DNA of 64,000 nucleotides from Streptomyces silaceus. GTDB lineage: Bacteria; Actinomycetota; Actinomycetes; Streptomycetales; Streptomycetaceae. Made by a program: the position numbers and the translations under genes. Positions 27,958-62,840 of this stretch are shown here, piece by piece. The notes beneath the pieces are model-generated. The model saw only the letters and a program-made list of their open reading frames with translations, did no database searches and had not been told where the DNA came from. Positions within the stretch are counted from its first letter, which is position 1. Every line of letters starts with the position of its first letter. The stretch covers positions 1-64,000 of the forward strand of contig NZ_LIRJ01000004.1 of assembly GCF_001419745.1 (NCBI RefSeq). Reading direction: 5' to 3'.

Positions 27958-28398
27958 TCAGGCCCCCGTGGCAGGCAGCGACGCCGGAGCGCGCATCACG
28001 CCGAGGTCGCGCGTGAGGGCGTTGACGGTGCCCGCGCCGGTGCTGGTGAGCTTCACGTACCGGTAGCCGTCCGACAGGGACGTCCCCTCCACCTCGATCA
28101 CCGCCGCGTTCTGCGTCGCAGCCGCCGCCGTGGTCACGGTTGCGCCCGCCGCCTGCGTGCGCCTGGTCCACGCGTCCGACCCGTTGCCGGTGCACGTGTG
28201 GTACTCGGCGATGCAGGCGAGGTTCTGCGCGCCCGTACCGGACGAGTCCTTCGCCTCCTGGAGGGTGTAGACGTCGCCGACGCCACCCCCGAGGTAGCAG
28301 GAGAACGTGACGCCAGCAGCCGCCCCCTTCAGGGCGATCCACGCGCCGTCCGCGGCCGGGGTCGTGTTGAACAGTCGGCCAAGTGCTCGCTGAGACAT
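27958..28398 (-). CDS. Putative capsid decoration/accessory protein
   Basis: 146 aa with a beta-rich, Ala/Thr/Gly composition. It starts MSQRALGRLFNTTPAADGAW and contains CIAEYHTCTGNGSDAWTRR. Its place between the major capsid gene and connectors is typical of head decoration proteins, but no fold is firmly recognised. Confidence 0.65.
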   Translation of the reverse strand: MSQRALGRLFNTTPAADGAWIALKGAAAGVTFSCYLGGGVGDVYTLQEAKDSSGTGAQNLACIAEYHTCTGNGSDAWTRRTQAAGATVTTAAAATQNAAVIEVEGTSLSDGYRYVKLTSTGAGTVNALTRDLGVMRAPASLPATGA

Positions 28399-47482: not shown

Positions 47483-48369
47483 CTGATGGTTTCAGAATGA
47501 AGTCTGCTGTGAGGCTTGGCAGTTGGGTGATGTAGGGGCAGGGTTGGTGGAGTGCCTGCTGACCTTGTGCCTGATGACTTGTGGGAACGGGTGGCCCCGC
47601 TGTTGCCGGCTCGTCCGGCCAGACGGCACCGGTATCCCGGGCGGCTGCCCGCGGACGATCGTGCTGCTCTGCGGGGCATCGTTTACGTGCTGTGCAAGGG
47701 CGTGAGCTGGCGGGACGTTCCGTCGGAGCAAGTTGGCTGCAGCGGTGTGACGGCCTGGAGACGTCTGCGTGACTGGACCGAGGCCGGTGTCTGGCCGCAG
47801 TTGCACGAGGTACTGCTGTGCGAGTTGCGGGCCGCGGGCCTGCTGGACATGGATGACGCCGCCATCGACGCTTCACATGTCCGGGCCCTGAAAGGGGGGC
47901 TCACACCGGACCTTCGCCGGTCGACCGGGCACGGCCCGGCAGCAAACACCACCTGATCGTCGACCGGTACGGCACACCCCTGGTCGTCTCGTTGACCAGC
48001 GGAAATCGTCATGATGTCACGCAGCTCGTGCCTCTGCTGGATGCGATGCCCCGGATCCGCGGTGTCCGCGGACGGCCGCGACACCGGCCGGGCCGGCTCT
48101 TCGCCGACCGCGGCTACGACTTCGACATGTACCGCCGAATCCTTCGAGCGCGTGGCATCACACCAAGGATCGCGCGCAGAGGCACCACCCACGGTTCTGG
48201 ACTCGGCAGGACTCGATGGGTCGTCGAGCGGACCTTCGCGTGGCTCCACCAGTTCAAACGCCTGCGGATCCGCTACGAAACACGTGCTGATCTCCACCTC
48301 GCACTGCTCCAACTCGCCTGCAGCATCATCTGCCTGAGACGCCTACGAACCTCATTTTGAAACCATCAG
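47483..48369 (+). mobile_element. IS5-family insertion sequence, 887 bp
   Basis: Ends are 18-bp inverted repeats: CTGATGGTTTCAGAATGA (47483-47500) and TCATTTTGAAACCATCAG (48352-48369), one mismatch. TTA flanks both sides (47480-47482 and 48370-48372), a 3-bp target duplication of the TNA type known for IS1031-like members. It carries a single transposase in two frames. It landed in an intergenic region and looks intact and recent. Confidence 0.9.
47552..48360 (+). CDS. IS5-family transposase (two frames joined by -1 slip)
   Basis: The first frame (47552-47956) starts MPADLVPDDLWERVAPLLPA and holds the first catalytic Asp in AIDASHVRALKGG. A -1 slip on GGGGGG (47894-47899) restores the second frame as GAHTGPSPVDRARPGSKHH, then IVDRYGTPL. 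It reaches the second Asp (LFADRGYD) and Glu (RWVVERTFAWLHQFKRLR), ending at 48360. The fused protein, about 269 aa, is full length for the family, so this is probably programmed frameshifting rather than decay. Confidence 0.85.
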
Positions 48370-52460: not shown

Positions 52461-53180
52461 TCACGCGCAGATCACGCAGCGGTGATCGGCGATCTCGTTG
52501 TCGTGGCAGGCCTCGACGCAGCCGCGGCAGTACGGGGTGCCGCTGTAGCGGGCGCGTCCGGCGTACCGGGTGTCGGCGGGGTCGAACGGGCGGCGGCACT
52601 TAGCGCACGCCGGCCGCTCCTCGATGTCCTCGTCGTATCCGGCGACCGTCCACCGCGCGGCGGCCGCGTCCCAGACGACCGACCAGGCGTTGCGGTCGGT
52701 GAGGGTGCCGTCGATGTCGATGCCGACGGGCATCCCGGCGTCGGCCGCGGCGTTGAGGGCGTTGGCGATGTCCACCCAGTGCGCGCGCTCGGTGCGCGGG
52801 GCCGGGCCCGGCGTGGGCTGCTCGCCCTTCACGTCCTCCGTGGGCTGCTTCTCGGCGGGCGTGCGGCTGTCGATGTCGGCGGCCCACGCGGCGCACACCG
52901 CGGCGACCTGGACGAGCTCGGCGCGCAGCAGGGACGTGTCCGACTCGGCGAGTGCCTCGTAGACCTCCTCCAGCAGCACGTCACGCCACATGAGGACGCC
53001 CGCGGCAGCATTGCGGTCGGCGGCGTCGCGGTAGCGGTTCGCTGCGTGCTGGTGGATGGGGAGGCCGGTGCCGTCGGGGTGGTGCTGCTCGCCGAACTTG
53101 GCGATCTGCCGCTGGCGTTCGGCGTCGATCTCTTCGGCGAACTGGCGGACACCGGGGGTGGTGAAGAGGGCGGGGTGCAT
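52461..53180 (-). CDS. MazG-like NTP pyrophosphohydrolase with zinc ribbon
   Basis: 239 aa. Residues about 12-105 (IDAERQRQIAKFGEQHHPDG, WRDVLLEEVYEALAESDTSL, RAELVQVAAVCAAWAADID) match phage MazG-like nucleotide pyrophosphohydrolases, with the EExxE metal motif. A middle linker, then a C-terminal domain with CAKCRRPFDPAD and YCRGCVEACHDNEIADHRC zinc sites. It could cleanse or reshape the dNTP pool for replication of the element. Confidence 0.75.
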   Translation of the reverse strand: MHPALFTTPGVRQFAEEIDAERQRQIAKFGEQHHPDGTGLPIHQHAANRYRDAADRNAAAGVLMWRDVLLEEVYEALAESDTSLLRAELVQVAAVCAAWAADIDSRTPAEKQPTEDVKGEQPTPGPAPRTERAHWVDIANALNAAADAGMPVGIDIDGTLTDRNAWSVVWDAAAARWTVAGYDEDIEERPACAKCRRPFDPADTRYAGRARYSGTPYCRGCVEACHDNEIADHRCVICA

Positions 53181-53265
53181 GGTGATCTCCGTTGTCTCGG
53201 GGTCTCGTTGCTGTGGTTGTTGCTGGGGTGTGCGTGGGTGTGGCTGTATCCGGATGTGGGCGCGG

Positions 53266-55062
53266 CTAGGCGGCGCCGGGGGGTTCGGGGTGGCTGCCGG
53301 TTTCGGGGTCGCAGGAGAGGCAGGTGTCGTATCCGCGGTCGAGGCGGTAGCCGTGGAGGGGGTTGCTGCAGACGGTGCAGAGGGGTTCTTTCGCGTCTGG
53401 TGGTTCCGGCGTTCCCTCCCCGTTCCCCCTCTTCGAGGGGGGAACGGTGGGAACGGGGGGCGTTCCTGACGTTTCCGCGACGTTTCCGGGAAACGTCTGA
53501 CCTGGGGTTTCGTCGTTCCGGGGTGTGTTCCGGGAAACGTTTCCGGGAAACGTCTGCTGGGAACGGTCCGGGAAACGTTCCGGGGAAACGTCGAAACCGG
53601 TCATTTCGGATCGGGCTTTGCGGCGCCGTACGGCCTCGGCGATCTTGTTGTTGCCGCCCGGAACTTGGAGTTCCGCAAGCTTTTCCCGAGCGACCCGGTT
53701 CCCCGTGTCGTTGGGCAGGCCGGCGCGGTCGAGGGTGGCGACGATGTGCTCGACGGTGCCGGGGATCGCGGCGAGGCCAGTGTCGGTGCCGGGTTCGTTG
53801 TCGTAGGTCATCAGGACGTGGCGGGTGCCGCCGAGAGCCCAGTTGTCGCCGTCGCGGTGAGCCTGGCGCAGCAGGGTGAAGTGGTCGGGGCCGATGCCGG
53901 TGCGGGTGTGGGTGCGCTTGAGGACGAGGGTGCCGCCGCCCTGGTAGGTGAGTTCCCAGACGTGGTCGACGTCTTGTGTCTTGGCGGAGGAGCCGCGGCC
54001 GCCGCGCTCGCGGTCCTTGCCGAAGTGGTCGAGGCGCACGGAGGCGATGCGGTCGCGCTTCAGGGGCAGGAGCGTGTGCCGGTAGAGGGAGAGCCAGGTG
54101 TCGGCGTCGTTCTCGGGGCCGCCGATGAACCGGGAGACGGTGTCGATGACGACGAGGTCGGCGCCGGTGGCCTTGACGAGGGCGAGGAGGTCGGCGCCGC
54201 CGCCCGCGGTGTCGAGGGGCCGCAGGGGCGGGAAGCTGGCGTACCGGAGTTCGCCCATGTTGGTGGGTCCGGCGCCGAAGGACAGGAAGCGTTCCTGCAC
54301 CTGCTCCTGCCCGTTCTCCGCGTCGAGGTAGAGCACCTTGACCGGGGGCTGCGGGGCGTCGTCGAGGACGCTCTGGCCGGTGGCCATGCGCCACATCCAT
54401 TCCTGTGTGAACAGGCTCTTGCCGGCCTTGCCGTCGCCGACGAGGGTGATCTGCTGGCCGGGGCCCATGAGCTTGCCGGGCAGGAGCTGGATCTCGCCGA
54501 AGTCGGTGGCGAAGAACGTGCCCCAGTTCAGGAGCGAGGCGACGAGGTGAGCAGGCCCGTGGCCGGTGTTCTCGCGGAGCTGCTCGCGCTGCTGGAACTC
54601 GGCGACGAGCGCGGCGAGTTCGTCGCCGTCGGCGTTGCGGTCGATCGCGGTCTTGAGGGAGGTGGAGTGTTCGTCGTAGCGGCGCTGGCGTGCGGTCTCG
54701 GCGATGCGTTCGGCGAACGAGGCCGCCATGAGCGGGCTGATCGTCTCCGAGCCGAGGCGGTAGATGAGGTTGCCGCCGTCGACTCGGTGGAGCTGGCCTT
54801 CCTTCTCCAGTTCGGCCCGGACGAGGGCGGGGTGGCAGGGCTGGCCGGTGGCGTAGATGCCGGCGGTGGTGTCCCAGATGAGTTGGTGGGCGGGCTTGTA
54901 CAGGTCGTCGCGGGTGATGAGGAGGGAGCACTCGTCGAAGGCCTGCTTGGAGTGCATGACGATGCCGACGACGTACTCCTCGGCCTCGGCGTCGCAGGGG
55001 GGAACCCGGTTGAAGCCGTCCGTATCCGCCTCGTTGCGCGGGATGTGGCGGACGTTGTCCAC
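53266..55062 (-). CDS. DnaB/RepA-like replicative helicase
   Basis: 598 aa. Residues about 20-130 are a DnaB N-terminal-type helical domain (PPCDAEAEEYVVGIVMHSKQ). The RecA-like ATPase follows with Walker A GDGKAGKS (about 208-215) and Walker B LVVIDTVSR (about 300). An H/Arg region (RTGIGPDHFTLL) and a winged-helix-like segment come before a low-order tail with two FPGNV repeats, and it ends in a four-Cys ribbon (CTVCSNPL...CLSCDP). Probably loads at or unwinds the element's origin; the iteron array lies inside this gene. GTG 55062. Confidence 0.85.
   Translation of the reverse strand: MDNVRHIPRNEADTDGFNRVPPCDAEAEEYVVGIVMHSKQAFDECSLLITRDDLYKPAHQLIWDTTAGIYATGQPCHPALVRAELEKEGQLHRVDGGNLIYRLGSETISPLMAASFAERIAETARQRRYDEHSTSLKTAIDRNADGDELAALVAEFQQREQLRENTGHGPAHLVASLLNWGTFFATDFGEIQLLPGKLMGPGQQITLVGDGKAGKSLFTQEWMWRMATGQSVLDDAPQPPVKVLYLDAENGQEQVQERFLSFGAGPTNMGELRYASFPPLRPLDTAGGGADLLALVKATGADLVVIDTVSRFIGGPENDADTWLSLYRHTLLPLKRDRIASVRLDHFGKDRERGGRGSSAKTQDVDHVWELTYQGGGTLVLKRTHTRTGIGPDHFTLLRQAHRDGDNWALGGTRHVLMTYDNEPGTDTGLAAIPGTVEHIVATLDRAGLPNDTGNRVAREKLAELQVPGGNNKIAEAVRRRKARSEMTGFDVSPERFPDRSQQTFPGNVSRNTPRNDETPGQTFPGNVAETSGTPPVPTVPPSKRGNGEGTPEPPDAKEPLCTVCSNPLHGYRLDRGYDTCLSCDPETGSHPEPPGAA
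53469..53591. repeat. Iteron-like ACGTTTCC/GGAAACGT array (candidate origin)
   Basis: Two perfect 17-bp palindromes ACGTTTCCGGGAAACGT at 53480-53496 and 53537-53553. Further half or near-full copies lie at 53469-53476, 53530-53540, 53568-53578 and 53575-53591. The copies fall in more than one codon frame of the helicase gene (TFPGNV twice, VSPERFPD once), so the repeat is kept at DNA level. Typical of replication initiator or repressor binding sites. Confidence 0.65.
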
Positions 55063-62205: not shown

Positions 62206-62840
62206 CACGCACCGCCCGTCGTGGGCTCGTCCGTGCGGAGGACCTGCGTGGGCGCGAGGAGCCGCGTCAGCTTGTCCGCCGACTCGACGGCCTGCGAGGA
62301 CCCACAGACGCGGCACGGCGCGCTCTCACCACCGTTGGCCACGAACCGCGCGGCGTCAGCGCCGTAGCAGCGAGTGCAGCTGGGCGAAGGTGCCACGTAC
62401 GCGGCGGCCTCCAGCTCGGCGACCCGAGCCCGCAACCGCTCCAACTTCACCTCACCGTCGAGCAGCCGCCGGAGCACCGGCCCCATCCGCTCGCCCATGT
62501 ACGAGGTGAGGTTCAGGCAGAACAGGTCTTCCCCCGTGGGGTGTTCGTGCTCGCGGCAGTCCCGGACAGACTTGGCCAGCGAGGCGAGCAGGCTCGTGCT
62601 CGCGGGCCGGACGTCGCCGAGCTGCTCAGCCAAAGTGTCCGGCTGCGGACCGACCGGCACCGGCAGCACATCCGCCGACCCGACGATCCCGTGCTCCGCG
62701 AGCTCCGCCTCCGTCGCCATCACGAACTCCGGGCAGGAGCACACGCCCTCAAGGGCGTACAGAGCGAGCCCGTCACGCGTCACCACGCGACGCGTCCACA
62801 CGAGGCCGTCCCTCGTGTTCACCACCAGCGGGGCGCTCAT
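62205..62840 (-). CDS. Hypothetical phage protein with zinc ribbon
   Basis: 211 aa. Starts with a beta unit including VVTRDGLALYALEGVCSCPEF, has a helical centre (LLRRLLDGEVKLERLRARVAEL) and a C-terminal CTRCYGADAARF then APCRVCGSS ribbon. Common in Streptomyces phage early regions; function unknown. ATGA overlap with the upstream gene. Confidence 0.7.
   Translation of the reverse strand: MSAPLVVNTRDGLVWTRRVVTRDGLALYALEGVCSCPEFVMATEAELAEHGIVGSADVLPVPVGPQPDTLAEQLGDVRPASTSLLASLAKSVRDCREHEHPTGEDLFCLNLTSYMGERMGPVLRRLLDGEVKLERLRARVAELEAAAYVAPSPSCTRCYGADAARFVANGGESAPCRVCGSSQAVESADKLTRLLAPTQVLRTDEPTTGGA

Follow-up and report, generated by a model that had tools for sequence, protein, structure and literature searches.

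The helicase gene and its domains

The window, by which we mean the whole stretch of 64 kb analysed here, belongs to an 8.7-Mb draft genome in 732 contigs and contains phage genes, among them genes for a terminase, a portal and a head protease, and a holin match. Elsewhere in it, the ORF list shows two neighbouring plus-strand ORFs (47552-48360) that, judged by eye, resemble a transposase broken across two frames. An exonuclease, a RuvC-like resolvase, a WhiB-like regulator and a Gp3-like protein are encoded around the gene on which we focus, which encodes a DnaB-like helicase of 598 residues on the minus strand (53266..55062, with a GTG start as listed). The protein has both hallmarks of such helicases, namely a DnaB N-terminal domain (PF00772, 2.4e-16; residues 21-122, 54697..55002, minus strand) and a RecA-like ATPase core (PF13481, AAA_25, 1.4e-20; residues 197-351, 54010..54474, minus strand), and it matches phrog_19, DnaB-like helicase. 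The Pfam scan found no primase domain in it, and the PHROGs that are named as primases match the ATPase stretch alone (residues 198-360).

In an AlphaFold2 model built from 56 aligned sequences, the N-terminal and ATPase domains are confidently predicted, and a short ordered part at the C-terminus is the zinc ribbon (CxxC...CxxC, residues ~560-586, 53305..53385, minus strand), which is recognizable from the alignment and the model, without a Pfam match. The ribbon is preceded by a disordered linker (residues 487-557, 53392..53604, minus strand; pLDDT below 50), and this in turn by a small helical C-terminal domain (residues ~428-486, 53605..53781, minus strand) with helices at 437-446, 455-464 and 471-486. 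The earlier note on this DNA had described a disordered tail between the helicase core and the zinc ribbon; the disorder and the ribbon on one side hold, but the other flank is the small helical domain and not the ATPase core. We consider this domain a candidate helix-turn-helix (HTH) domain that would read the DNA sites described below, on the grounds of its predicted helices, its covariation with the type of those sites and a weak fold match. The model of the domain has a pLDDT of 79 and its structural matches are weak (best VIA Z 3.3 for the ARR1 DNA-binding domain and 3.2 for Fur), while Foldseek returned E values above 5, with no confident relative among the matches listed. A sequence search of the PDB with a profile of the domain gave RNA polymerase beta as its best match (E 0.088), which we take to be due to chance.

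An array of half-sites in the linker codons

The DNA encoding the linker contains an array of 13 half-sites, CGTTTCC/GGAAACG and CGTTCCC/GGGAACG in both orientations, which spans 53410..53591 as a whole and is a candidate origin. Two perfect copies of a palindromic sequence, with half and near copies beside them, had been reported between 53469 and 53591. We find the palindrome ACGTTTCCGGGAAACGT as an exact match at 53480..53496 and again at 53537..53553, and a near copy, ACGTTCCGGGGAAACGT, at 53575..53591; the array is wider than had been reported, the CGTTCCC/GGGAACG half-sites extending over 53410-53590. Adjoining the first palindromic site is a box, AAACCCCAGGTCAGAC (53495..53510, minus strand), which sequence comparison identifies as conserved, and further along lies an inverted repeat, CCGTTCCCCCCTCGAAGAGGGGGAACGG (53420..53447, minus strand), a predicted hairpin that has half-sites at its foot and whose arms read CCGTTCCCCCC-TCGAAG-AGGGGGAACGG on the sense strand (53447-53420). 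The order on the sense (minus) strand is thus sites, box, palindrome, sites, hairpin and sites.

These sites are strongly clustered. Eight of the ten occurrences of CGTTTCC/GGAAACG in the window fall within 53401-53620, compared with 0.007 expected from their density elsewhere, and the window contains only this one cluster of the half-sites. The 15-base dyad CGTTTCCSGGAAACG is found at two places in the entire 8.7-Mb draft genome, both of them in the array. As the earlier note had stated, the sites lie in different frames: all three minus-strand codon phases are occupied. The array has a GC content of 60.2%, compared with 71.0% for the window, which places it among the lowest 2% of windows; an AT-rich unwinding tract was not seen at the array by inspection rather than systematic scan, the array being merely AT-richer in relative terms. 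The cumulative GC skew over the window does not turn at 53.5 kb (maximum at 62260, minimum at 28350), which counts against an origin. An RNA family was rejected, the Rfam search of 53000-54000 giving six microRNA matches far below the gathering score, which we regard as chance.

Position of the array among relatives

We searched for relatives of the locus in phage records, IMG/VR, GTDB genomes and the genomes of the window's genus, and obtained 100 candidate loci including the window, 96 of which were used; the removal of 24 near-duplicates left 72 loci that are non-redundant at the helicase. The four loci outside the counts fall into the same two classes as the counted ones, with a coding array (L086, L091) or an array just past the stop codon (L089, L095). 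Also unused were L098-L113, which are weaker matches or match the N-terminal domain only, and L114-L186 and L189, which, going by contig name, repeat records already included. Within the genus, full-length relatives (53-74% identity) were seen in 4 of 198 other genomes.

The array is in or directly after the helicase gene at 67 of the 72 loci. At 53 of them it lies in a coding linker, which precedes a zinc ribbon in 51; the remaining two are L070, whose C-terminus beyond the array no longer reads as a ribbon, and L031, which is cut by the end of its contig. At another 14 (L043, L044, L046, L049, L050, L053, L082, L083, L090, L094, L096, L097, L191, L192) the array is noncoding and located at the stop codon of the helicase gene or a short way past it, and the layout is similar in this noncoding DNA, where the helicase ends after the HTH domain. 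The array is upstream of the gene in two loci (L051, L052) and displaced 3 kb downstream in one (L017), no array was found at L190, and L037 is a fragment. In L017 (6443-9680) the helicase frame is broken past the HTH domain and a CGTTCCC array follows 3 kb downstream, as if an insertion had come between the two.

The array is also the strongest repeat window of its own locus in 52 of the 58 loci ranked (59 less L092, which is under 5 kb), the exceptions being L023, L039, L040, L042, L068 and L071. In all 59, the top 7-mer, which was chosen on the array, is at least 58-fold enriched over the rest of the locus (median 270), with a count of only 4 in three linkers.

Conservation of DNA rather than peptide

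The half-site changes wholesale from clade to clade: besides CGTTTCC, the window type, we find CGTTCCC, GGTTCCCC/CCTTCCC, CCTCCCC, CCTGTCC and, in phage mu1/6, ACCTGCCC, and in the group with noncoding arrays CTGTCCC, CTGTACC, CTGTTCC and others. The layout, in which sites, a box around CAGGTCA, sites, a hairpin and further sites follow one another, is largely kept across clades. The exact 16-base box is present near the stop codon in 33 of the 72 loci and the core CAG[GA]TCA in 27 more, including L070, where the core is off its expected place; 12 have neither, some of them showing one-base variants by eye (e.g. CAGCTCA in L036). In L051 the box is present in the upstream array. The stem of the hairpin varies while its complementarity is kept (CCTC/GAGG, CCAC/GTGG, CACC/GGTG and others), as judged by eye; in a few loci, L041 and L063 among them, a different inverted repeat was picked out.

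The peptide encoded by the same DNA is less constant. In 49 matches over the 51 linkers, the box occupies the three frames 30, 18 and 1 times, and is translated as (T)PGQT, PQVK or NPRS. In three groups of 14, 8 and 11 sequences, third-base identity at four-fold degenerate sites is 0.88, 0.87 and 0.85 in the linker versus 0.69, 0.64 and 0.68 in the ATPase core, and amino-acid identity is 0.69, 0.68 and 0.70 in the linker versus 0.83, 0.79 and 0.88 in the core. Third-base identity is raised in the zinc-ribbon codons as well (0.81, 0.80 and 0.84), and codon bias therefore contributes in part. The relatives keep the DNA cluster despite a change of frame or an earlier stop, which argues that the DNA itself matters. 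The idea of the earlier note that the tail exists to host the DNA sites is strongly supported by the box in three frames, the hyper-conservation of four-fold sites and the 14 noncoding arrays. The note had proposed comparing homologues for conservation of the repeat rather than the peptide, and had named relatives that keep FPGNV peptides without the symmetry of the DNA as the result that would speak against its idea; we observe the opposite: it is the peptide that disappears in relatives, while the symmetric array in the DNA is retained.

Covariation of the array with the small C-terminal domain

Which part of the protein goes with which array was examined in 50 of the 51 loci (L048 left out), the distance between arrays being calculated from 6-mer spectra. 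Array distance correlates best with distance in the small C-terminal domain (Spearman 0.70), followed by the core (0.45), the N-terminal domain (0.41) and the zinc ribbon (0.29). As there is a correlation with the core as well, shared descent accounts for part of the covariation. The partial correlation for the HTH domain given the core is 0.62, a value reached in none of 500 permutations, compared with 0.17 for the core given the HTH domain (9 of 500) and 0.15 for the ribbon given the core (11 of 500); when the relatives with noncoding arrays are included (58 loci), the partial correlations are 0.59 and 0.20. The ribbon serves here as a control for linkage, because its distance from the array is similar to that of the HTH domain. 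We stress that these are correlations between sequences, and that descent is only partly corrected for by the permutations.

The alignment columns outside the linker that are most informative about the type of array (471, 456, 458, 459 and 476) lie in helices 2 and 3 of the HTH domain; the mean adjusted information is 0.34 and 0.26 for these two helices, 0.18 for helix 1, 0.09 for the core and 0.04 for the ribbon. Two natural recombinants point the same way. In L039 the core is window-like (p-distance 0.07 to L005) and is joined to an HTH domain and an array of D type (CCTCCCC); in L092 a core that lies at a distance of 0.73 from its closest counterpart among the other 49 is joined to a D-type (CCTCCCC) HTH domain and array as well; further such combinations were noted by eye in L091, L221, L226, L246 and L290. 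As judged from their sequences, the recombinants carry the HTH domain and the array together.

The box and arrays beyond these helicases

Of 199 genomes in the genus, that of the window included, 108 contain the exact box, with no matches to a reversed control among those listed; the window's own genome has a copy of the box motif, AAACCSCAGGTCARAC, at G000:C79:18318-18333. We read 30 of the box loci: at 13 the box lies just before a gene for tRNA-Pro(GGG), and at several it lies at gene ends or in terminator-like inverted repeats, with two beside tRNA-Thr (L333, L336). Rfam, run at seven of the box loci, names tRNAs only. As the box also precedes tRNA-Pro genes and occurs at the ends of genes and in terminator-like hairpins, we reject it as an element exclusive to origins; its presence at host loci unconnected with replication counts against the origin reading.

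Of 16 whole phage records, 12 contain a 13-base form of the box; 11 of these have a single copy and one (G213) has two, the second of them near a tRNA-like sequence. In G205 the matching copy is inverted and lies where the linker of L041 itself begins; the forward box of L041 differs by one base. Other replication genes have a box and array of their own. One locus (L315) has the box and a private array inside the gene for a 353-aa PHROG replication initiation protein, and in a 158-kb viral contig (L236, 5700-6300) an array of ACCCTCCA and the box occupy the linker of a 1562-aa ORF, a fusion of primase and DNA polymerase A. On the reverse strand of L338, at about 1500, eight CCACATG/CATGTGG half-sites and three boxes are found in a 378-aa ORF with an HTH-like sequence, for which there is no Pfam or PHROG match and no tblastn match in the phage collection.

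Among actinobacteriophage initiator genes related to that of L315, the densest repeat window of a 3-4 kb region lies inside the gene in eight of eight cases (L343-L350), which were picked among the 30 matches listed of 310 records. These come from phages of Gordonia, Mycobacterium, Propionibacterium and Thermobifida, and their repeats include TCGCGA, GGGGAACA and others. The box core GCAGGTCA is present in three of eight O-like initiator genes, or in four of nine when the gene of plasmid pSCL1 is added, with 4 copies in 8,271 bp inside the genes versus 5 in 31,491 bp outside. It is thus neither universal nor strongly enriched by count in these genes.

A candidate origin inside the helicase gene

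The sequence comparisons identify the half-site array, the box and the hairpin as one cis-acting DNA element directly 3' of the codons for the HTH-like domain, which the reading frame crosses in most of the relatives found, stopping before it in others. From these observations, we hypothesize that the segment is a phage replication origin inside the phage's own helicase gene, read by the HTH domain of the helicase, a reading to which we would give a probability of about 65%. That the element functions as an origin is likely; its place in a replication gene and its resemblance to known intragenic origins fit a candidate origin. The arrangement also has the hallmark of the iteron type, clustered repeated sites that are specific to the presumed initiator and lie in or next to its gene, the helicase being the putative initiator in this case.

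Several other explanations have to be weighed. Although we consider it unlikely, the sites could be operators through which a repressor, or the HTH domain of an autoregulating helicase, regulates transcription of the genes that follow the helicase or keeps the prophage silent, with the box as part of a leader or terminator. The box motif in host leaders and terminator-like hairpins, its position in several viral contigs from metagenomes, where by eye it lies next to a promoter-like TTGACA, and the hairpin at the 3' end of the array would all suit such a role; however, the half-sites form a single cluster in 64 kb with no dispersed operators, the array keeps to the helicase gene or the DNA directly after it in the large majority of loci, and the genes of other replication proteins host such arrays too. 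It is more doubtful still that the segment is an origin to which a different protein, of the phage or of the host, binds, the covariation with the HTH domain being mere physical linkage. The HTH codons do immediately adjoin the array, and the module recombines as a whole, yet the zinc-ribbon codons, about as close on the other side, covary far less (0.29 versus 0.70), and the covarying columns are concentrated in HTH helices 2 and 3. A centromere-like, partition-like or packaging site that fell into the helicase gene by chance seems very improbable: in pSCL1 a box and array occupy noncoding DNA some 1.2 kb ahead of a ParA gene, but no par match was found among the 20 window proteins scanned, several of which are without any match, and the element goes with the helicase across relatives. 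Finally, we reject as scarcely credible the notion that a low-complexity Pro/Gly/Thr-rich peptide with biased codons yields the repeats by chance, for while the linker is disordered, the use of three frames, the inverted symmetry, the four-fold conservation above that of the core and the noncoding copies all contradict it.

If the segment is an origin read by the helicase, the HTH domain would bind the half-sites as an initiator, in an O-some or iteron complex, and in so doing would bring the hexamer of the same helicase to the origin, with no need for a separate initiator protein. The box and hairpin may serve accessory steps, as the site of a host factor or in strand opening or priming, and the zinc-ribbon extension may have been added later, over the origin. 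Taken further, the locus could be a one-gene replicon. Its DnaB-type helicase would have its own iteron-reading HTH domain and an origin within its gene or immediately behind it, and would need neither a separate initiator nor a loader to load itself; the HTH domain and array would form an exchangeable specificity cassette moved between ATPase cores, the frame would have been extended across a formerly noncoding origin, and the box, common to unrelated actinobacterial phage and plasmid replication loci, would reflect a shared host step in origin firing. We put this wider model forward tentatively, at slightly less than even odds. If true, a candidate origin would have been mapped, along with the domain that recognizes it, for a family of Streptomyces phages that includes mu1/6; the matched HTH-array pairs would offer a natural panel on which specificity could be tested, and the origin would be one that is in coding DNA in some relatives and in noncoding DNA in others. 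The model would also suggest a way for a phage helicase to be loaded in the absence of a dedicated initiator.

Comparison with known systems

The O protein of phage lambda is an initiator that recruits the host helicase. In lambda and lambdoid phages, the part of the account available to us places the iterons in the middle of gene O, the gene of the protein that uses them, where extra iterons add residues, and includes an AT-rich tract in the lambda origin (PMC7466680). As in gene O, the array here is in the inter-domain linker of a replication gene (residues 487-557 in the AlphaFold2 model), its role as an origin being a predicted one; unlike in gene O, it is the helicase whose gene hosts the array, and the candidate DNA-binding domain is located C-terminally. 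We therefore do not assign the locus to the lambda-O type, as its product is itself DnaB-like and not an O-like initiator that recruits a separate helicase. The origin of phage P4 lies outside the gene for its alpha protein. Alpha unites origin recognition and helicase activity in one protein, according to the portion of the source at hand (PMC8965321), as the helicase described here may do if its candidate recognition domain is one. It is not of the P4 alpha type, which has a primase domain in the same protein, given that the Pfam scan found no such domain in it.

Among the linear plasmids of Streptomyces, the rep1-rep2 genes of pSLA2 and pSCL1 were reportedly described by Chang, Kim and Cohen in 1996. 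In pSCL1 we find GAGTCA repeats inside a helix-turn-helix gene beside an AAA ATPase gene, with the box core TCTGACCTGC just before the repeats, so that both systems have repeats inside a DNA-binding or replication gene and the box core nearby; the rep1 window is not the densest of the plasmid, 48 of 1150 windows scoring as high. Unlike in pSLA2 and pSCL1, where DNA binding and ATPase are two proteins, the two appear to be fused here. Elsewhere in pSCL1 (L351, 7840-8450), we noted two noncoding inverted-repeat arrays, ACCGTCATG and CCCGACAT, with the box directly before the second and the ParA gene about 1.2 kb on. The iteron of the Streptomyces theta plasmid pWTY27 consists, in the section of the paper available, of GTGGGAAC/TTCCCAC direct repeats and inverted repeats, and the RepA footprint covers an inverted repeat that overlaps some of the direct repeats (PMC3583192). 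It differs in that, going by the same section, the iteron is noncoding and RepA and the prim-pol RepB are separate proteins.

For repA of mycobacteriophages, an origin at a lambda-like position or just upstream has been proposed, with no repeats in the region examined there, as far as the accessible part of that paper goes (PMC7157519). Among the literature matches listed, none describes an origin located within a helicase gene of an actinophage, and the text matches to the box core that were listed are unrelated. A named counterpart is the gp21 DNA helicase of Streptomyces phage mu1/6, which is 46.9% identical and has the box, an inverted repeat and its own ACCTGCC array in the same linker, with a half-site that differs from the window type; an origin is not among the annotated features of the mu1/6 region examined. 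What sets the present locus apart from the known cases is that the host gene of the array is that of a DnaB-type helicase and that the candidate binding domain is fused to the helicase.
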